Source: an uncultured Acidimicrobiaceae bacterium (GTDB lineage Bacteria; Actinomycetota; Acidimicrobiia; Acidimicrobiales; SZUA-35). Taken from it: a stretch of 64,000 nt of DNA. The translations under genes were made by a program, and so were the position numbers. Position 1 is the stretch's first letter. Each line of letters opens with the position of its first letter. The stretch spans positions 1 through 64,000 of the forward strand of contig CAMYLA010000035.1 of assembly GCA_947259095.1 (NCBI GenBank), written 5' to 3'. Below are positions 22,183-55,168 of this stretch, piece after piece. The notes under the pieces are model-generated. The model made no database searches, was not told the origin of the DNA, and saw only the letters and a list, made by a program, of their open reading frames with translations.

Positions 22183-22353
22183 TGGTCGATTCCTAGGTTG
22201 GTCAAACGATCGAAGCGGCCACCGCAGTGGCATGGAGGCTCGTTTTCGGTGCTGACAGCACCGCAGTAGGAGCCCGACTGGACCCGCCTAGCCTATCGGC
22301 GGCGGTGAGGACTCCGACCTCCCCATGCCCGGGCCGTGCAACCACGGCTCCGC

Positions 22354-22424
22354 CATGTCCCTACGGCCTCGCCGTCATGTCCCAACGGCCTCGCCGTCAT
22401 GTCCCAACGGCCTCGCCGTCATGT
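22354..22424 (-). repeat. 22-bp tandem hairpin array directly after the trmD stop
   Basis: Three full copies plus a partial of a 22-bp unit (catgtcccaacggcctcgcc plus gt on the plus strand). Each contains ACGGC-CTC-GCCGT, a 5-bp stem with 3-nt loop. On the trmD transcript the first copy begins right after the TAG stop. The last trmD codons plus stop resemble a degenerate unit. It separates trmD from rplS and could act as transcript 3'-end, attenuator or RNase barrier. Confidence 0.85.
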
Positions 22425-23156
22425 CTAAGGATCGACCTCGAGGCCGAACTCGTCGAGCAGCCGGTGGTCATCTTCGCCAAGCCCGCCGCGGACCTCCATC
22501 AGGTCTGGCCGGATCCGGGCGGTTCTGGCCAGAGACTGCGCCAGACGCCACCGCTCGATCCGGGCATGGTTTCCCGACCGGAGGACCTCGGGGATGACCC
22601 AACCCCGATACTCGGCCGGCCGAGTGTAGTGGGGGTACTCAAGCAGCCCGTCACTGAACGACTCGTCCGCAACGGATTCGAGGTTCCCCAGCACCCCCGG
22701 CACCAGTCGACCGACGGCTTCCAGGACCACTGCGGCGGCCACCTCTCCCCCGGCGAGCACGTAGTCGCCGATGGAGAGCTCCTCGTCGACCAGGTGTGCA
22801 CGAACCCGCTCGTCGATCCCCTCGAATCGGCCGCACAGCAACGAGAACCCCCCGCCGCCGGCCAGTCGGTGGGCGTCGGCCTGACAGAATACCGGCCCGG
22901 CGGGCGACAGATAGATGAGTGGCCGGGGTGGGTCGACCCGGTCGACGGTGTCGAAGATCGGCTCCGGCTTGAGCACCATGCCGGCGCCGCCCCCGAACGG
23001 GGCGTCGTCAACAGATCGATGGACATCGGTTGCGGCGTCGCGGATGTCGTGCACTCGGATGTCGAGCACTCCCGACCTCCTGGCCTTGCCGAGGAGGCTG
23101 GCCGAGGCGAAGCTCTCCACCACGTCGGGCAGGATCGTGAGGACATCGATCCTCAT
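22425..23156 (-). CDS. trmD: tRNA (guanine-N1)-methyltransferase
   Basis: TrmD methylates G37 of tRNAs with SAM, preventing frameshifts. From ATG 23156 it is 243 residues. SPOUT-fold motifs are LTILPDVVESF, the substrate loop DDAPFGGGAGMVLKP, the knot region LLCGRFEGIDERV with IGDYVLAGGE, and the C-terminal domain (PHYTRPAEYRGW). The frame is open further upstream but that part overlaps rimM and is not TrmD-like. Gene order rimM-trmD-rplS is standard. Confidence 0.96.
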   Translation of the reverse strand: MRIDVLTILPDVVESFASASLLGKARRSGVLDIRVHDIRDAATDVHRSVDDAPFGGGAGMVLKPEPIFDTVDRVDPPRPLIYLSPAGPVFCQADAHRLAGGGGFSLLCGRFEGIDERVRAHLVDEELSIGDYVLAGGEVAAAVVLEAVGRLVPGVLGNLESVADESFSDGLLEYPHYTRPAEYRGWVIPEVLRSGNHARIERWRLAQSLARTARIRPDLMEVRGGLGEDDHRLLDEFGLEVDP

Positions 23157-41025: not shown

Positions 41026-41037
41026 GGCATCACAACT

Positions 41038-41226
41038 CGGCCAGCGGGCCTCGATCTACCGGGTCGGCCAGCAGGCCTCGATCTACCGGGTCGGCCAGCA
41101 GGCCTCGATGAACCGGGTCGGCCAGCAGGCCTCGATGAACCGGGTCGGCCAGCAGGCCTCGATGAACCGGGTCGGCCAGCAGGCCTCGATCTACCGGGTC
41201 GGCCAGCAGGCCTCGATGAACCGGGT
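41038..41226 (-). repeat. 27-bp tandem array (7 copies) between rpmF and plsX
   Basis: Seven copies of a 27-bp unit (plus strand: cggccagcaggcctcgat, then ctaccgggt or gaaccgggt). Reading 41038 to 41226 the two versions alternate as ctac, ctac, gaac, gaac, gaac, ctac, gaac. Each unit holds GGCC-AGCA-GGCC. The array begins 3 nt past the rpmF stop on the minus strand and ends 12 nt before the plsX start, so any rpmF-plsX transcript must pass through it. Confidence 0.92.
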
Positions 41227-41229
41227 CGG

Positions 41230-41409
41230 TCAGGCGACCTCAATGGCTTGACGGCCCTTGTACCAACCACAGGAGCCACAAACCCGGTGGGGCAGTTTGG
41301 TTGCGCCACATCGGTCGCAGTTGCTGCGGGATGGGGCCGAGAGCTTCCAGGCCGACGCCCGACGACTGCGGGTCTTCGACTTTGACTTCTTCTTCTTTGG
41401 AACAGCCAT
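41230..41409 (-). CDS. rpmF: 50S ribosomal protein L32
   Basis: L32 is a small 50S protein. The 59-residue product begins MAVPKKKKSKSKTRSRR, the universal L32 start, and carries a zinc-ribbon pair CDRC (31-34) and CGSC (44-47). It ends GWYKGRQAIEVA. ATG 41409 is preceded by AGGTAGAAA. It lies between the DUF177 gene and plsX, the standard DUF177-rpmF-plsX cluster. Its final codons plus stop look like a degenerate copy of the neighbouring 27-bp repeat. Confidence 0.96.
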   Translation of the reverse strand: MAVPKKKKSKSKTRSRRASAWKLSAPSRSNCDRCGATKLPHRVCGSCGWYKGRQAIEVA

Positions 41410-45038: not shown

Positions 45039-47315
45039 TCAGCCCTTGAGCAGGAACTCGGCATCCTCGGTTTCGAGGAACAGCGCCAGCTCGCCGGCCA
45101 GGGCCGGATGGCTCTCCAACCCGGGGTCGGCATCGACCACCTCGATGGCCGCCCGCCGGGCGGACTCAACCGTCGCCCGGTCCCGTCGCAGCGATGCCAG
45201 CTTGAGGTCGTTCCGGCCCTTCTGCCGCTCCCCGAGGATGGTCCCCTCCCCTCGCAGGTCGAGATCGACCTCGGCCAGCTCGAACCCGTCGGTCGATTGG
45301 ACCAGGGCCTCCAGCCTGGCTTCGCCGTCCTCGGTCGATGCTTCGCCAACCAGCCAACAGGTGGATCCGTGCTCACCTCGACCGACCCGACCCCGCAACT
45401 GATGCAGCTGGGCGATGCCGAACCGGCCGGCATCGAGGATCACCATCACCGTGGCGTTTGCCACGTCGACCCCGACCTCGATCACCGTCGTCGCCACCAG
45501 GACGTCGAGGTGGCCGGAGCGGAACAGCTCCATCGTCTGGTCCTTCTCGGCCGGGGTCAGGCGCCCGTGCAGCAGGCCCAGCCGGTAGCCGTCGAGCTCG
45601 ATCTCCGACAACCGTTCGAACGTGGCCTCGGCAGACGCAACCTCCAGCTTCTCGGACTCGTCGATCAGCGGGCAGACGATGTAGGCCTGTCGCCCCTCGG
45701 CGATCTGGTCCCGGATCTCGTCCCACATCTGGTCGAGCATGGCCTGGATCTCGTCCGGCTCGAACCGGATCTCCGGTCTGGTCGTCCCCGCCTCGGCGTC
45801 GACCGGGGTCGACCCGGGGGGTTGATCGAGGTTGCCCGGCGCCGGCACCCACCTGGTCTCAATGGGGGTCCGGCCGGGCGGCAGCTCGTCGAGGACCGAG
45901 ACGTCGAGATCGCCGTAGACCGTCATCGCCGCGGTGCGAGGGATCGGTGTGGCGGTCATGACCAGGACGTCTGGAACGGCATCGCCGTAGCTCCGGTCCC
46001 GGAGGGCGGCCCGCTGCTCGACACCGAAGCGATGCTGCTCGTCGATCACCACTGCGCCGAGTGAACCGAACAGGACCTTGTCCTGGATCAGGGCGTGGGT
46101 GCCGATGGCGATGTCGACCTCGCCGGTCAGCAGCTGGCTGAGGACCCGTTTGCGGTCGGCGGTCCCCAGCCGGTTGGTCAACAGCTCCACCCGCAGCGGA
46201 CGGTCGGCGAACAGCGAGTGCTCGTCGCCAACGGTCAGCCCGTCGAGCAGCAGCCGGATCCCGCTGTAGTGCTGCTCGGCCAGGACCTCGGTGGGGGCCA
46301 TCAGCGCCGCCTGATGCCCTCCGTCGACCGCGGCCAGCATCGTGGCCACCGCCACCAGCGTCTTGCCGGAGCCGACGTCGCCCTGCAACAGCCGGTGCAT
46401 GGGCACCGGACGGGCCAGGTCGGCGGTGATCTCGTCGATGGCCCGGCGTTGGGCGCCGGTCAGCCCGAACGGCAATGTGTCGGTCAGACCGGCGAGCAAC
46501 GGCCCATCGATGACGTGAGCCAGCCCGACCTCTGTTCGCTCGATGGCCCGTTTGCGCAGCACCAACGCCAGCTGGAGCCGGAACAGCTCGTCGAACACCA
46601 GCCGGCGGCGGGCCTCCACCACGTGGGCCATGGTCTCCGGCTGGTGGATGCCCTGGAACGCCGCCTCCCTGGTGATGAAGTCGTTTTCGTCGAGCAGGTA
46701 CGGCGGCAGCGGATCGAGCAGACCCCGGCCTTTCGGCGCCACGGTGCGGCGGAGGATCTCGGCCACCCATTCCGCCACCTCCCAGGTGTGGAGCCCGGCC
46801 TTCTCCGACTGGGGGTAGACGGGGATGATCCGACCGGTCTTGTCGCCGACGAGGTCGACGACCGGGTTGGTCATCTGCCGCTGGCCTCGATAGAGGTCGA
46901 CCTTGCCGTAGATCATGGCCTGGCGGCCCGCCGTCAGCTGCCGTTCCCGCCACGCCTGGTTGAAGAAGGTGATCTTGAGGGTGCCGCTGTCGTCGCTCAC
47001 CGTCGAGTTGACCATCACCTTGCCGCCCCTGACCCTGCGGCTGGTGGTGTGGTCGACCCGAACCAGCACGCTTGCCTCCTCGCCCTCGATCAGCTCGGCG
47101 ATCCGCGCTTCCTTGGTCCGATCGAGGTACTTGCGGGGGTAATGGGTGAGGAGGTCGAGCAGGGTGTGGATCTCGGTCTTGGCCAGACCCTTCGCCTTCT
47201 TGTCGCCGACCCCCTTGAGCTCGGTGACCGGCAGCCTACGATAGCTCCCGGCACCTGCACTCTCCCCCGCCGGCCGCTCGGCGCACCAGTGCCGAAGCTC
47301 GGCCGATGGCACCAA
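45039..47315 (-). CDS. recG: ATP-dependent DNA helicase RecG
   Basis: RecG reverses stalled replication forks and processes Holliday junctions. The 758-residue protein has the N-terminal wedge/OB domain (about 50-160), Walker A GDVGSGKT, DEQH box (VVIDEQHRFGVEQR), motif III MTATPIPRT, and the helicase C-domain (TTVIEVGVDVANATVM, QLHQLRGRVGRG). The start is uncertain. TTG 47315 is followed by conserved LPVTELKGVGDKKAKGL about 28 residues later, so a slightly later start is possible. In mycobacteria rpmB and a DAK2-domain gene often precede recG; they are not here. Confidence 0.95.
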   Translation of the reverse strand: MVPSAELRHWCAERPAGESAGAGSYRRLPVTELKGVGDKKAKGLAKTEIHTLLDLLTHYPRKYLDRTKEARIAELIEGEEASVLVRVDHTTSRRVRGGKVMVNSTVSDDSGTLKITFFNQAWRERQLTAGRQAMIYGKVDLYRGQRQMTNPVVDLVGDKTGRIIPVYPQSEKAGLHTWEVAEWVAEILRRTVAPKGRGLLDPLPPYLLDENDFITREAAFQGIHQPETMAHVVEARRRLVFDELFRLQLALVLRKRAIERTEVGLAHVIDGPLLAGLTDTLPFGLTGAQRRAIDEITADLARPVPMHRLLQGDVGSGKTLVAVATMLAAVDGGHQAALMAPTEVLAEQHYSGIRLLLDGLTVGDEHSLFADRPLRVELLTNRLGTADRKRVLSQLLTGEVDIAIGTHALIQDKVLFGSLGAVVIDEQHRFGVEQRAALRDRSYGDAVPDVLVMTATPIPRTAAMTVYGDLDVSVLDELPPGRTPIETRWVPAPGNLDQPPGSTPVDAEAGTTRPEIRFEPDEIQAMLDQMWDEIRDQIAEGRQAYIVCPLIDESEKLEVASAEATFERLSEIELDGYRLGLLHGRLTPAEKDQTMELFRSGHLDVLVATTVIEVGVDVANATVMVILDAGRFGIAQLHQLRGRVGRGEHGSTCWLVGEASTEDGEARLEALVQSTDGFELAEVDLDLRGEGTILGERQKGRNDLKLASLRRDRATVESARRAAIEVVDADPGLESHPALAGELALFLETEDAEFLLKG

Positions 47316-47514
47316 GGTGGCGGTCGACCTTCATTCCTGGCATCGATGCGCTGCATTACCTATGGTGATACTCCCCCAGCCAACTTTCCGCAGACGTGGA
47401 CGACCGTTTACTGTCTACCTCAATCGGATATCAGCATGGGGTCCCGCTGTGCAATATGTCCTGCAAATGGGCTTGCGCTTCGGCCACCAGATCCTTCCAG
47501 ATGGAGTGAACACG

Positions 47515-47754
47515 TTGCAGGGTGTCGTCAAGTCATATGATCCGGTAACCCGTGACGGTCTCGTCGTCACCGATACCGCCGACATGTCCGAATACGAGCT
47601 TGCTCCCACCGCCCTCGACGGTTCGGTGTTCCGGATGCTCCGTCCGGGCCAGCGGGTGGTCTTCGATCTCGACGGCCAGTCGAAGGCGACGGCCCTACGC
47701 CTCGGCTCCGAGGTGGACATGGGCACCCCGGAATGGGTCGAGTCCGAGAAGTAA
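47515..47754 (+). CDS. Small cold-shock-like beta-barrel protein
   Basis: A 79-residue protein resembling a divergent cold-shock domain: start LQGVVKSYDPVTRDGLVV, compared with the CspA pattern GTVKWFN..KGFGFI. It continues with MLRPGQRVVFDLDGQSKATALRL, matching the later strands. The aromatic RNP1/RNP2 residues of true CspA are mostly missing, so nucleic-acid binding is uncertain. TTG 47515 with GGAG 8 nt upstream is the preferred start; GTG 47506 is an alternative. It lies between divergent recG and pckA. Confidence 0.72.
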   Translation: MQGVVKSYDPVTRDGLVVTDTADMSEYELAPTALDGSVFRMLRPGQRVVFDLDGQSKATALRLGSEVDMGTPEWVESEK

Positions 47755-47824
47755 CCCAGATCCCGAGCAACGCGGCTCCCGACAATCTCCCCCAAACCAG
47801 CTCTCAACAGACGGAGGAGGCCAC

Positions 47825-49480
47825 GTGAGCCTCGCAAGTGAACTCGAACAGCAATTCGGGCTGACCAGCGTCACCCTCAAGGCCGAACTGTCTCAGGACG
47901 AACTGTTCGGCGAGGCGATTGCCAACGATCGGGGCTGGGTCGATCCCGACGGCAACGGCGACGACCAGAAGGCCTTCGCAACCAAACTGGGCATCGACGG
48001 CCCGCTGATCTACTACACCGATCCCACCTGTACCGGGCGACCGACCAAGGACACCTTCGCCGTCGCCCGTCCCAGCGTGATCGACGAGGTGTGGTGGAAG
48101 CCGGACTTCCAGCAGTTCGATCCCGATGCATTCGATGCGCTGCTGCCACGGGTCATCGATCATCTCAACCAGCGTCAGGCCACCCTCTACACCACAGACG
48201 TGTTCTGCGGTTGGGACACCGAATTCGCCGAGCCCTACCGATTCATCGGCGAGCACGCCACCCACGCCTACTTCTGCAACATCATGTTCCCCAAGAACGT
48301 CCGGGACGACGTCGACCGGACGACCTCGGGATGGACGCTGATCAACGTCCCGTCGTTCCGCTGCGACCCCGAGCGCGACGGCACGCTCACCGAGCGGGGG
48401 GTCATCATCGACATCGAGAATCGGGTCGGGCTGGTGCTCGGTCGGGCCGACTACTGCGGCGTCAACAAGAAGACGATGTTCACGATCATGAACTTCGTGC
48501 TGCCGTCCAAGGGCCAGCTGTCGATGCACTGCTCGGCCAACGTCGGCTCCGACGGCGATACCGCCATCCTCTTCGGGCTGTCCGGCACCGGCAAGACGAC
48601 CCTGTCTGCCGACCCCGAGCGAGAACTGATCGGCGACGACGAACACGTTTGGACCGACGCCGGCATCTCCAACTTCGAGAACGGCTGCTACGCCAAACTC
48701 ATCGATCTGAACAAGGAGGCGGAGCCGGTCATCGCCGCCGCACTGTCGATGAAGGGCACCCTGATCGAGAATGTGCCCCCCCTGCCTGGCAAGGATCTGG
48801 CCGACACCGATCCCCAGGAATTCGATCTCACCGACCAGTCGATCACCGAGAACACCAGGTTCGCCTACCCGCTGGACTGCAATCCGAACGTCGCCAGCGG
48901 CGCCTCCGGACCCCACCCGAAGACGATCGTGCTGTTGACCGCCGATGCCTTCGGCGTGTTGCCACCGCTGTCGATCCTCAACGACGACGAAGTGATGTAC
49001 CACTTCGTCACCGGGTTCACCTCGAAATTGGCCGGTACCGAGGTCGGGGTGACCGAACCCCAGGCCACGTTCTCCTCGTGCTTCGGCTCGCCGTTCATGA
49101 GTCACAAGCCGTCGGTGTACGCCAGGCTGTTGGCCCGCAAGATGAAGGACCACAAGACCCGTTGCGTGCTGCTGAACACCGGCTGGTCTGGTGGACCGTA
49201 CGGTGTCGGTTCGAGAATGTCGATCAAACACACCCGGGCGCTGCTCGACGCAGCGCTGGCCGGTGCGCTCGACGACGTCGAGACCGAGATCCACCCCATC
49301 CTCAACCTGGCCATGCCCCGGAGCTGCCCCGGGGTGCCGGGCGAGGTGCTCAACCCCCGCAACACCTGGGATGACGGTGCGGCCTACGATGCGGCGGCGG
49401 AGAAGCTCCGGGACATGTTCCGGGCCAACTACGAGGCGAAGTCGTTCGCCGAACTGGGTATCACCGACGCTATGTCCTAG
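47825..49480 (+). CDS. pckA: ATP-type phosphoenolpyruvate carboxykinase
   Basis: PEPCK makes phosphoenolpyruvate from oxaloacetate at the start of gluconeogenesis. The 551-residue protein is of the ATP type: P-loop GLSGTGKT (251-258) in the signature FGLSGTGKTTLSAD, ADYCGVNKKTMFTIMNF, the kinase-2 motif and GSRMSIKHTRALLDAALAG near the end. Most classical actinobacteria use the GTP enzyme, so the ATP form is notable. GTG 47825 has GGAGGAGG 4 nt upstream. The TAG stop is itself the first three bases of a 24-bp tandem array. Confidence 0.96.
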   Translation: MSLASELEQQFGLTSVTLKAELSQDELFGEAIANDRGWVDPDGNGDDQKAFATKLGIDGPLIYYTDPTCTGRPTKDTFAVARPSVIDEVWWKPDFQQFDPDAFDALLPRVIDHLNQRQATLYTTDVFCGWDTEFAEPYRFIGEHATHAYFCNIMFPKNVRDDVDRTTSGWTLINVPSFRCDPERDGTLTERGVIIDIENRVGLVLGRADYCGVNKKTMFTIMNFVLPSKGQLSMHCSANVGSDGDTAILFGLSGTGKTTLSADPERELIGDDEHVWTDAGISNFENGCYAKLIDLNKEAEPVIAAALSMKGTLIENVPPLPGKDLADTDPQEFDLTDQSITENTRFAYPLDCNPNVASGASGPHPKTIVLLTADAFGVLPPLSILNDDEVMYHFVTGFTSKLAGTEVGVTEPQATFSSCFGSPFMSHKPSVYARLLARKMKDHKTRCVLLNTGWSGGPYGVGSRMSIKHTRALLDAALAGALDDVETEIHPILNLAMPRSCPGVPGEVLNPRNTWDDGAAYDAAAEKLRDMFRANYEAKSFAELGITDAMS

Positions 49481-49636
49481 CGGTCGTCCCGACCGGTGTC
49501 CTAGCGGTCGTCCCGACCGGTGTCCTAGCGGTCGTCCCGACCGGTGTCCGAGCGGTCGTCCCGACCGGTGTCCTAGCGGTCGTCACGACCGGTGTCCTAG
49601 CGGTCGTCCCGACCGGTGTCCTAGCGGTCGTCCCGG
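49478..49636 (+). repeat. 24-bp tandem hairpin array starting at the pckA stop codon
   Basis: Six full copies and a partial seventh of tagcggtcgtcccgaccggt plus gtcc. Each unit contains CGGTCG-TCC-CGACCG (6-bp stem, 3-nt loop). Unit 1 begins with the pckA TAG itself; the fourth copy has gag instead of tag, and the fifth has one change in the loop. The array fills the gap to the convergent EcsC-like gene and may be the pckA transcript end. Confidence 0.92.
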
Positions 49637-49654
49637 GGGCGATGCTGCCGGGCG

Positions 49655-50569
49655 CTACTGCGGCTGTGAGTCGGTCGGGATCGAGTTTGCCCGGTCGGCC
49701 TCGGAGAGCTTGACCGGCGGGTTCGGGAGCCGTTTGCTCCCGGGAGCGGGTGGGGGCGGCGACACCGGCGGCAGGGCCGGTGCTGGCTGCTCAACCAGGG
49801 AGTCGACCGGGAGCCCGGGCGTGGGCGGTGGTGGAGGCAGGAGGGCACCGGAGTAGGCGAAGAACCGCTGGGCGTGGAAGCCGACCACCCTGATGAGGGC
49901 ATAGTTGGCCGAGCCACCGACCATGGCACCGACACCGAACGGGAGGAGCTTGCCAACGGCCAACAGGCTTCGCCGAGAACCGAACTTCGTCACCACATGT
50001 GCCGCCAACCGGGCGTTGAGCCGACGCAGCGCATCGAGGGTGGCAACGTCGCCGCCGGCGATCCCGGCCAGCCGACCGCTGATTCGCTCCCCACCGACGA
50101 CGGCACGGGCGTCGACCTCGATCAGTAGCGAGGAGAATTCCTCGGCCGCCGCCTCACCGAAGGCCAGGACCGACAACACCCAGGCCCGTCGCTCCTCAAC
50201 GGTGGCATCGGTCCTCCCGTTCGCCGCACCGATGGTCATCACCAGATCGGCGGACCGGACCGCAAACCAGGTGAGGTCGGCAACCAGGGTGGCGGCGGCG
50301 GCGCTGGTACCGAGGCCTGGGGTGGCGGCGACCGCACCGGTGGCCGCTCCCATGGTGCTGAGCTCCCGCCGGAACCGTCGGTTGATGGCCCGGACCCGTT
50401 TTTCCGCCGTGTCCCCTTTTGCCTCGGCCGCCACCCGGACCGCTCGATCCCATCGATCGGCAACGGCCCTGTCGACCCCCTGGAGTATCGCCCTGCCGAC
50501 CAGATCCAGCGCCGGCGCAGGCAGCCGGGCTGCGGCCTTGCGCCTCAGATACCGTTTGGATTTGGACAC
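49655..50569 (-). CDS. EcsC-like membrane-associated protein
   Basis: A 304-residue protein with two small-residue-rich helical hairpins: about 70-110 (GAATGAVAATPGLGTSAAAATLVADL) and about 200-230 (LLPFGVGAMVGGSANYALI, an EcsC-like PxxGxxxGG pattern). The last 70 residues are Pro-rich and hydrophilic. EcsC-family assignment is by pattern only and moderate. GTG 50569 has AGGAG 5 nt upstream and is preferred over earlier starts. Function unknown. Confidence 0.6.
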   Translation of the reverse strand: MSKSKRYLRRKAAARLPAPALDLVGRAILQGVDRAVADRWDRAVRVAAEAKGDTAEKRVRAINRRFRRELSTMGAATGAVAATPGLGTSAAAATLVADLTWFAVRSADLVMTIGAANGRTDATVEERRAWVLSVLAFGEAAAEEFSSLLIEVDARAVVGGERISGRLAGIAGGDVATLDALRRLNARLAAHVVTKFGSRRSLLAVGKLLPFGVGAMVGGSANYALIRVVGFHAQRFFAYSGALLPPPPPTPGLPVDSLVEQPAPALPPVSPPPPAPGSKRLPNPPVKLSEADRANSIPTDSQPQ

Positions 50570-50648
50570 GTTCACTCCTGTCGGCCAGTGGAGCCCGTTT
50601 GCCTCCACTCGCTCGACGGCAATCCTAGCGCCGGAGGCTCGCCTTTCC

Positions 50649-50684
50649 ATAAGTCTGGACTTATCAGAAGTGTGGACTTATGAT
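50649..50684 (+). promoter_or_regulatory. Promoter and palindromic operator of the ArsR gene
   Basis: ATAAGTC-TG-GACTTAT (50649-50664) is a perfect 7-2-7 palindrome, followed by a partial second copy of its right half (gtgtggacttat, 50670-50681). TATGAT (50679-50684) is a good -10; TGGACT (50656-50661), 17 nt upstream inside the palindrome, could be the -35. Binding of the ArsR product would block RNA polymerase, so autoregulation is inferred. Confidence 0.6.
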
Positions 50685-50696
50685 AACACTTGTCTT

Positions 50697-51077
50697 ATGA
50701 GGAACGAGATTGCGCTCTCGAACAGGGCCGAGCGCCAGCTCACGGCCCTGGCCAACCCGACCCGCCGGGCGGTCTACGACATCATCCGGGCCCACCCGTC
50801 GTCGGTCGGTGCGGTGGCGGCCGAACTGCCGGTTTCGCAGCCGGCGGTGAGCCAGCACCTGCGGGTCCTCGTCCGGGCCGGATTGGTGTCGGCCACCCCC
50901 GTCGGGGCGAAACGGGTCTACGCCGCAGATCGAAGCGGCATTGCCGATCTTCGAGCCTGGATCGACGGCCTGTGGGACGACAGCCTTGACAGCTTCGTCG
51001 AAGCGGCCGAGACTGCGGCGGCACCGACGGACCGAACAGACCGCGACGGGAAACCGAACCACGAGGCGTTGCCATGA
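50697..51077 (+). CDS. ArsR/SmtB-type winged-helix regulator
   Basis: A 126-residue DNA-binding repressor with the helix-turn-helix of the ArsR class: TALANPTRRAVYDIIRAHP, then SVGAVAAELPVSQPAVSQHLRVLVRAGLV and the wing AKRVYA. No Cys or His metal site is seen, so it probably senses something other than metals. ATG 50697 has no Shine-Dalgarno and starts about 13 nt after the -10. The stop lies in a 9-bp repeat (gtgccatga). The regulated genes may include the EcsC-like gene on the other side of the operator. Confidence 0.85.
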   Translation: MRNEIALSNRAERQLTALANPTRRAVYDIIRAHPSSVGAVAAELPVSQPAVSQHLRVLVRAGLVSATPVGAKRVYAADRSGIADLRAWIDGLWDDSLDSFVEAAETAAAPTDRTDRDGKPNHEALP

Positions 51078-51092
51078 GTGCCATGAGTGCCA
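51066..51092 (+). repeat. 9-bp tandem repeat spanning the ArsR stop codon
   Basis: ttgccatga, gtgccatga, gtgccatga: three copies in frame, each ending in TGA, of which the first is the real stop. This is a small version of the stop-anchored arrays at trmD, rpmF and pckA. Confidence 0.7.
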
Positions 51093-51153
51093 TGAGAAAC
51101 TCGTCCGTTCCGCTCCAGCCGCTGGTCAAGGTCGTGGCGCCACAACTGTCCTG

Positions 51154-52554
51154 TCAGCCCCCGGCCGGGTCCTCGATCCACACCATGTGGCTGATCGGGC
51201 GATCGATGAAAACCCGCCAGGAGCGGTCCTCCTCGGTGTCCCAGGCGATGATGTCGTCACCGAAGGCATAGGCCAACCACCGCCCATCGGGTGACCACGC
51301 CACCGGGGAGTCCTCGTTGACGCTCTCCGAGCGTGCGGCCGCCACGCCGGTGTCGAGATCGATCCACCGGGGGAGCGCAACCCCCCGCCTGTCGATCACC
51401 GCCAGCCGGGTGCCATCGGCTGACACCGACGCACCGAGGGCCCACGACTCGATGGGGCGGTCGGCGAGCTGCTCGGGTACCGGCACCGACCGTCGGTCCG
51501 GCTCGTCCGGGGGGCCGACGGCGATCCGGCAGTCATCGGGCCGACCGCAACGAACCATGGCCAGGTTGCGACCGTCATAGCCGGCCACCACACCCTCGGA
51601 AACCAACTCGGCCGTACCATCGTCGTTGAGCAGCCAGACCGCACCGGCCTTGGAGACCAACGGACGGTCCAGCCACCCGCCGAGCACGTCCACGTCGTAA
51701 CCGAGCGCCAGCGATTCCTCAACGTCCTCGCGTTCGAGCCTGCTGGAGAGCGTCACCTGCCGGGTCGGTTGCCCATCGGCCACCAGTACCACCCCGTCGT
51801 CGCTGGGGAGCAGGTCATCGGCCTCGACACCGGCCGACTCGATCTCGCCGTCGGGCACGACTGCCGACAGTGTGGAATCGGACAGGATCAGAGGCCGATC
51901 GTCCGACAGCGAGTACACCATGGCGCCGGGACGACGGCCGGCCGGGACCTCGATCTCGGTCGGCTGGGCATCGGAGCGGCGGATCTGGACCAGCGAATCG
52001 GCAGGGCCGTAAGCCAACAGCAGGTCCGGCATGTCGGGGGACAGATCGGCCCGCAACTCGGGGATCGGGCCCAGGATCAGCGGTTCGTCGGCGGCCGCAG
52101 CGTCATCGGACGGTGTAGTGGCGGCCCGCGGGGTCGGCACCGGCTGTGGCAGGGTGGTGTCGCTGCTGCGAAGCGGTTCGTCGGCCGGGGGATCGGGCAC
52201 CACGTTCTGACGGTTCTGACGTTGCAGGATCTCCTGTTGCTGGTTCGCAGGCAGCTGATCGAAGGGATCCTGGTCACCGGGGCGGGACATCAGGGCCAGT
52301 GCCAGGAGTACGATCGCCACCCCGGCGAGGGCGACCACCCGGGCCGGCATCGATGACAGGATCGAAGGTGCATCGGGACGAGGCGATTCGCTCAGCCGGT
52401 AGGCCGACGGCTCGGCCTCCAGGAACTCGATCGACTCGTCCTTCGACCCGCCTTCCCCCGACCCCCCGGCCAACCAGCCGTCGTTGTCGACCCACGGGCT
52501 GGCGTCGATCTTCTCCTTCCAGGCCAGTCGATTGCCGGCCTCGGAGTCTGCCAT
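51154..52554 (-). CDS. Membrane-anchored protein with a beta-propeller-like outer domain
   Basis: A 466-residue protein: a cytoplasmic N-terminus of about 60 residues, one membrane helix (about 62-82; VVALAGVAIVLLALALM), a disordered linker, then an outer domain with several WD/TolB-like blades (DGTRLAVIDRRG, SPVAWSPDGRWLAYAFGDDIIAWD near the end). No enzyme motif was seen. ATG 52554 has GAGGGGAG upstream. It could scaffold or sense at the cell surface; this is inference. Confidence 0.7.
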   Translation of the reverse strand: MADSEAGNRLAWKEKIDASPWVDNDGWLAGGSGEGGSKDESIEFLEAEPSAYRLSESPRPDAPSILSSMPARVVALAGVAIVLLALALMSRPGDQDPFDQLPANQQQEILQRQNRQNVVPDPPADEPLRSSDTTLPQPVPTPRAATTPSDDAAAADEPLILGPIPELRADLSPDMPDLLLAYGPADSLVQIRRSDAQPTEIEVPAGRRPGAMVYSLSDDRPLILSDSTLSAVVPDGEIESAGVEADDLLPSDDGVVLVADGQPTRQVTLSSRLEREDVEESLALGYDVDVLGGWLDRPLVSKAGAVWLLNDDGTAELVSEGVVAGYDGRNLAMVRCGRPDDCRIAVGPPDEPDRRSVPVPEQLADRPIESWALGASVSADGTRLAVIDRRGVALPRWIDLDTGVAAARSESVNEDSPVAWSPDGRWLAYAFGDDIIAWDTEEDRSWRVFIDRPISHMVWIEDPAGG

Positions 52555-55103: not shown

Positions 55104-55120
55104 GCCACCTCAGCCGGCAA

Positions 55121-55168
55121 AAGCAGACCGGCACAAGCAGACCGGCACAAGGAGACCGGCCGACCGGC
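55121..55168 (+). repeat. 15-bp tandem repeat after the M50-like gene
   Basis: Three copies of ggcacaagcagaccg with changes, beginning about 18 nt after the stop at 55103, followed by a decayed copy. Unlike the arrays at pckA, rpmF and trmD it lacks a clear internal hairpin and does not touch the stop. Confidence 0.65.

Follow-up and report, generated by a model that had tools for sequence, protein, structure and literature searches.

A tandem array of hairpin-bearing 24-bp units across the pckA stop codon of an uncultured Acidimicrobiaceae bacterium

Background

BIMEs are grouped with REP palindromes as palindromic units outside genes. MIRU units, described in 1997 by Supply et al., may overlap stop and start codons. 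In Yersinia pestis, 10 of 88 VNTR loci lie over stop codons and six over start codons, which goes against the view of an earlier note on the present DNA that known elements such as REP/BIME do not start at the stop codon; the VNTRs over stops have been suggested to matter less for the ORF (PMC3689786). In the Beggiatoaceae, 13 sets of TAACTGA direct repeats overlap the stop codon of the upstream gene (PMC4679880). Slippage of DNA polymerases between direct repeats, assisted by hairpins, has been described for deletions (PMC4134008). By title or abstract, the open-access papers searched yielded nothing on an enrichment of arrays at bacterial stop codons under the terms tried, and the term "stop codon" is absent from the available text of a study of satellites in prokaryotes (PMC6749651).

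The array described here lies at the end of pckA in the window, that is, the whole 64,000-nucleotide stretch of DNA analysed, with which contig C35 of a draft genome of 6.39 Mb begins. Like the Y. pestis VNTRs, it has a stop codon inside the repeat region, within a unit that occurs in near-identical head-to-tail copies. Those VNTRs belong to another phylum and have other units, and hairpins are not mentioned in the available text of the report; their copy-number variation has been measured, whereas the pckA array is known from one genome (PMC3689786). The TAACTGA repeats are likewise tandem repeats carrying stop codons, but they consist of a single 7-bp motif that recurs at numerous genomic sites and are discussed, in the text available, mainly for their position before starts (PMC4679880). 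With the MIRU of Mycobacterium, the array shares the arrangement of actinobacterial tandem units in intergenic gaps; MIRU units, however, measure 40–100 bp and are dispersed over 41 places (PMC2734929), and one 24-bp unit at one locus does not qualify as MIRU. REP palindromes are 20–40-bp palindromic units outside genes, and the pckA unit is similarly palindromic and placed behind a gene, but REPs form high-copy dispersed families (PMC3733652). The pckA unit is not dispersed, only the array itself matching it at 0–1 mismatch, and a REP/BIME identity was rejected. Repeats lying over stop codons have been found in bacteria before, and the pckA array adds a case with a positional bias around it; because the stop-codon VNTRs of Y. 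pestis and hairpin-assisted slippage have already been described, we regard it as a further case of a known phenomenon.

Results and discussion

Structure of the array

The pckA gene encodes an ATP-type phosphoenolpyruvate carboxykinase of 551 amino acids (positions 47825–49480, plus strand, GTG start; Pfam PF01293, PEPCK_ATP, E=7.3e-164), and its TAG stop codon (49478–49480, from the ORF and our table of units) lies within the first unit of the array. TRF, together with the unit table, places a tandem array of 24-bp units (TGTCCTAGCGGTCGTCCCGACCGG in TRF register) at 49473–49635 of the plus strand, with a period of 24, 6.8 copies, 97% matches and a score of 312. The six and a bit units read in the earlier note are borne out by these values, and the array does span the pckA stop: the unit contains the TAG and also TGTCC, the last five coding bases of the gene (49473–49477), which TRF places in array register. 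The limits of the array need correction. It begins five bases ahead of the stop, not exactly at the TAG as had been claimed, and it ends at 49635, not at 49636. Counted from the TAG, the array comprises six complete units and another 14 bases (49478–49635), and further TAGs in the pckA frame occur at 49502, 49526, 49574, 49598 and 49622. Units 1–3 are identical, and across the six full units there are only two single changes, TAG to GAG in unit 4 and C to A in the loop of unit 5. Every full unit contains the CGGTCG/CGACCG hairpin noted before, as CGGTCG-TCC-CGACCG with a 6-bp stem and a 3-nt loop, the loop of unit 5 being TCA.

As a chance control, the window was dinucleotide-shuffled 20 times; TRF scores of at least 50 were reached by 15 arrays in total, the best of them scoring 70. 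The array at the end of pckA is confirmed as real, and it is the strongest mainly intergenic array within the 2.46 of 6.39 Mb read. Its copy number, as distinct from its existence, might be a product of assembly if short reads had mis-sized the run of three identical units in a draft that comprises 229 contigs with 7.1% contamination. We judge this very improbable, for the single changes in units 4 and 5 anchor the middle of the array, and the contig that bears it (127,601 bases) continues for 78 kb past it.

The window contains 22 TRF rows. Besides the pckA array, there are in the window a 22-bp × 3.5 array at 22350–22425, which runs up to the last stop base of a TrmD-like gene on the minus strand, a 9-bp × 3 array on the stop of an ArsR-like gene (51070–51096), a 14-bp × 3.4 array 11 nt past a stop (55114–55160), and a 27-bp × 7.3 array at 41037–41233 (score 338), 64% of which is within called genes.

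Folding and the convergent gap

Downstream, pckA converges with an EcsC-like gene whose stop is at 49655–49657 (ORF at 49655–50650, minus strand; start at 50575 according to our home-made gene caller), and whose match to PF12787 (E=1.8e-5), at 25 bits, is below the Pfam curated cut-off of 30.4. The stop-to-stop gap measures 174 nt, 155 nt of which are array, and a short inverted repeat, CCCGG...CCGGG, read by eye at 49632–49652, sits between the end of the array and the convergent stop. There are no T-tailed intrinsic terminators on either strand of 49300–49800, and no Rfam model matches positions 47000–51200 up to E=1.

The multi-hairpin stretch reported in the earlier note behind the pckA stop is more stable than shuffled sequence on the plus strand: positions 49478–49660 fold at −96.2 kcal/mol, whereas 200 shuffles give −84.8 ± 4.2 kcal/mol (z −2.7). 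A single unit gives a z of −2.3, whereas the minus-strand fold is ordinary (z −1.2). In the lowest-energy fold of the whole stretch, the units pair with one another and do not form one neat hairpin per unit. Across the 2.46 Mb read, the units of arrays on stops tend somewhat more to form hairpins than do those of coding arrays (median z −0.77, n=22, versus −0.15, n=148; P=0.016), though not clearly more so than those of other intergenic arrays (n=50, P=0.07). The density of perfect inverted repeats in the stretch from 0 to +50 after stops exceeds that within genes, about 1.3-fold for stems of at least 6, 1.9-fold for at least 7 and 2.5-fold for at least 8, these ratios being averages over bins with array-bearing places excluded. 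Multi-hairpin 3' ends exist as sequence, and a functional role for them is possible.

One such role would be that of a selected 3' end that blocks converging transcription from both sides, or 3' exonucleases, and stabilises pckA mRNA. The plus-strand and single-unit folds, the 174-nt gap between convergent neighbours and the denser hairpins behind stops in this genome are all consistent with it, but the missing T-tailed terminators, the ordinary minus-strand fold, the mutual pairing of units in the best fold and the absence of the array from the relatives examined lead us to consider it quite unlikely.

Age of the array

A protein search of 61 genomes found pckA in 16, four of them in the genus of the window, its own genome included. 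The array is absent at pckA in all three congeners with pckA matches (87.6, 86.8 and 81.2% identity), where the gene ends in ATG followed by the stop. One congener (L006) has, by eye, a single 7-bp inverted repeat, CATCGGG...CCCGATG, inside the roughly 82-nt gap that precedes the end of the convergent gene. Of 79 pckA loci, 77 have 200 nt of 3' flank, the three congeners among them, and none of these 77 shows the unit behind the gene; the relatives were found by sequence, and most of their assemblies bear the name Acidimicrobiales, Acidimicrobiaceae or Acidimicrobiia. A conserved element behind pckA is ruled out by these 77 loci, which include the three congeners. The pckA of the window runs one codon further than that of 68 of the 79 relatives, which end at a Met just before the TCC codon of the array, and a decayed C-terminal coding repeat of pckA is ruled out on the same ground. 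The array reaches five bases into pckA and has probably added a codon to it.

Nowhere else in the genome does the unit occur at 0–1 mismatch, which rules out a dispersed repeat family; at 2–3 mismatches there are seven single places for the unit genome-wide and two for a reversed control pattern. A DNA search, in which at most eight candidates were scored per genome, gave a match in 2 of 99 genomes, its own included. Its two weak outside matches are L003, which we take to fall in a dnaX-like gene, and L004, which has a 24-bp array of its own that is taken to be coding. Since the relatives examined are without it, the array was probably made here recently, and the sequence comparisons suggest that it is young and private.

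The earlier note had also proposed that the unit was seeded from the last codons of the gene. The unit does contain the last five bases and the stop, but seeding from more than the last two codons finds no support. In register, the ungapped match of the pckA end to the unit is five bases long and is equalled by 5 of the 2225 called genes. The likeness drawn between cgacgctatgtcctag at the gene end and cgaccggtgtcctag at the unit end needs a gap and is not distinctive, since 878 of the 2225 called genes, a set that includes pckA, match the unit equally well with their final 30 coding bases.

In the relatives, some TRF array (score of at least 40) touches the 200 nt that follow pckA in 18 of 77 cases and the 200 nt that precede its start in 7 of 77, a contrast that is uninformative, several of the 3' arrays looking as though they are placed in the next gene. 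Strong arrays (score of at least 100) near pckA are found behind the stop in L053 (310) and L038 (101) and before the start in L098 (217). That of L053, which is another species, is an unrelated 34-bp × 5.2 array about 50–225 nt behind the stop.

Arrays at stops and starts in the genome

The 2.46 Mb read are a non-random sample, made up of long contigs, the opening 20 kb of contigs 1–20 and a few stretches from contigs matched in searches, in which our home-made codon-based gene caller found 2225 genes. TRF gave 441 arrays after removal of overlapping rows, 37 of which overlap a stop codon. The test set consisted of the 122 mostly intergenic arrays whose period is 8 or more. Of these, 30 overlap a stop against 15.3 expected under uniform intergenic placement (P=0.00025), and eight overlap a start against 19.1 expected (P=0.0018). 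With TRF scores of at least 70, 100 and 130, the stop overlaps are 18/66 (10.0 expected), 13/39 (6.7) and 12/24 (4.5), and the start overlaps at the highest of these thresholds are 3/24 (6.1 expected). When only the 1932 high-confidence genes are used, stop overlap is 26/135 against 11.8 expected.

The arrays are distributed over convergent gaps (25 in 40.1 kb), codirectional gaps (73 in 157.4 kb) and divergent gaps (22 in 84.9 kb), two being unassigned. In codirectional gaps 16 of 73 lie on the stop and four on the start, against an expectation of 13.5 in either case (P=0.012); stronger arrays point the same way (P=0.065 and 0.11). When each array is instead placed within its own gap (n=120), there is no clear excess at stops, 30 against 26.1 expected (P=0.17), nor for stronger arrays (13 against 12.0 at a score of at least 100, 12 against 9.6 at a score of at least 130), this null being conservative and weakened because an array enlarges its own gap. 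Starts are still short (8 against 18.4 expected, P=0.002), although starts from the home-made caller are less sure than stops and miscalled ones could cause part of the shortage. The enrichment at stop codons for which the earlier note proposed a genome scan therefore appears under uniform placement and not clearly within the arrays' own gaps. Overall, arrays persist at the 3' ends of genes and are rare at starts; the stop itself is permitted and not clearly preferred. In 400 kb of a genome from another family of the order (G044), there is no stop excess (3/24 against 3.9 expected). In pooled pckA loci with a G+C content of at least 0.56 (64 of 80 loci), stop overlap is 6/26 against 2.9 expected (P=0.06).

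The unit length is divisible by 3 in 17 of 30 arrays on stops and in 53 of 92 other intergenic arrays. This bears on the idea that the tandem in-frame TAGs are back-up stops against read-through of pckA. There are five such TAGs after the first, as that idea would have it, but a period divisible by 3 is not special to stop arrays and a single extra stop would suffice, and we find the idea scarcely credible. The preference of the intergenic arrays off stops for such periods perhaps reflects missed or former genes.

Origin of the array

We consider it likely that the array is a young minisatellite produced by repeated tandem duplication across the stop and the hairpin, and tolerated since the end of the protein is kept. 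The ancestor would have carried a short hairpin, CGGTCG-TCC-CGACCG, immediately after the pckA stop, where two convergent genes leave a small gap. Slippage in replication, or else an unequal exchange, would have duplicated 24 bases, with the left edge within the last two codons, and the duplicate would then have been amplified to about seven copies. Such a duplication would be nearly cost-free, because the copied DNA falls behind the first, unchanged stop: PEPCK would keep its own end, lengthened by one Ser codon at most, and starts would be left untouched. If transcription end or mRNA decay were altered, this would be incidental. The near-identity of the six full units, the absence of the array from the relatives examined, the lack of close copies elsewhere in the genome and the scarcity of intergenic arrays over starts relative to stops all favour this reading. 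Both changes among the units are outside the stems, which would fit selection on the hairpins and speak against the young minisatellite, although two out of two is no evidence. Also on the opposing side are the somewhat hairpin-prone units of stop arrays, the lack of a clear stop excess within the arrays' own gaps and its absence in G044.

The locus, with a test over 38% of the genome, cleanly exemplifies which sites in a compact bacterial genome let new tandem repeats survive: they are scarce over starts and commoner at 3' ends. If the hairpins did affect mRNA, such arrays would rapidly generate variation in the 3' ends of core metabolic genes; on present evidence the array is instructive but mostly an ordinary minisatellite.

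Arrays at other gene ends

All ten host genes of nine stop arrays match Pfam families, including methylmalonyl-CoA mutase, ribosomal protein L6, enoyl-CoA hydratase, dTDP-sugar epimerase and TrmD, and these gene ends are therefore real. The array over the methylmalonyl-CoA mutase stop is at positions 239–340 of L168 (C13:80239–80340 of G000, the genome of the window). The gene is present in 11 of 11 congeners, and the array is absent from all 11 in the 107 bases read behind the stop. One congener, G011 (L257), shows by eye an apparent two-copy duplication of its own across this stop, with the copies 33 nt apart; for this reason, the stop/start junction, as the sequences stand, may have been amplified more than once. 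TGATG is found at the stop in 5 of the 11 congeners, and the ATG frame of the G000 array does not extend into the next gene.

A broader proposal is that 3' gene ends are slippage hotspots in this lineage, where hairpins at stops would drive independent amplification of stop plus hairpin (PEPCK, methylmalonyl-CoA mutase, L6, TrmD and others, in several species) and give fast-changing 3' ends that alter mRNA decay; we think this rather unlikely.

Further arrays were observed at the ends of genes. A 33-bp × 5.1 array (L164 14032–14202; G000:C11:214032–214202) lies over both stops of a convergent gene pair, and an array at C1:64915–64997 likewise touches both stops of its pair. On the stop of the ribosomal protein L6 gene there is a 26-bp × 3.4 array (L105 19244–19332, contig C4 of G000), in a 176-nt gap followed by a codirectional gene. 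In G044, many arrays with related units (CGGGTCAGGTGTC...) occur over 400 kb (L235–L254) and resemble a dispersed satellite family.
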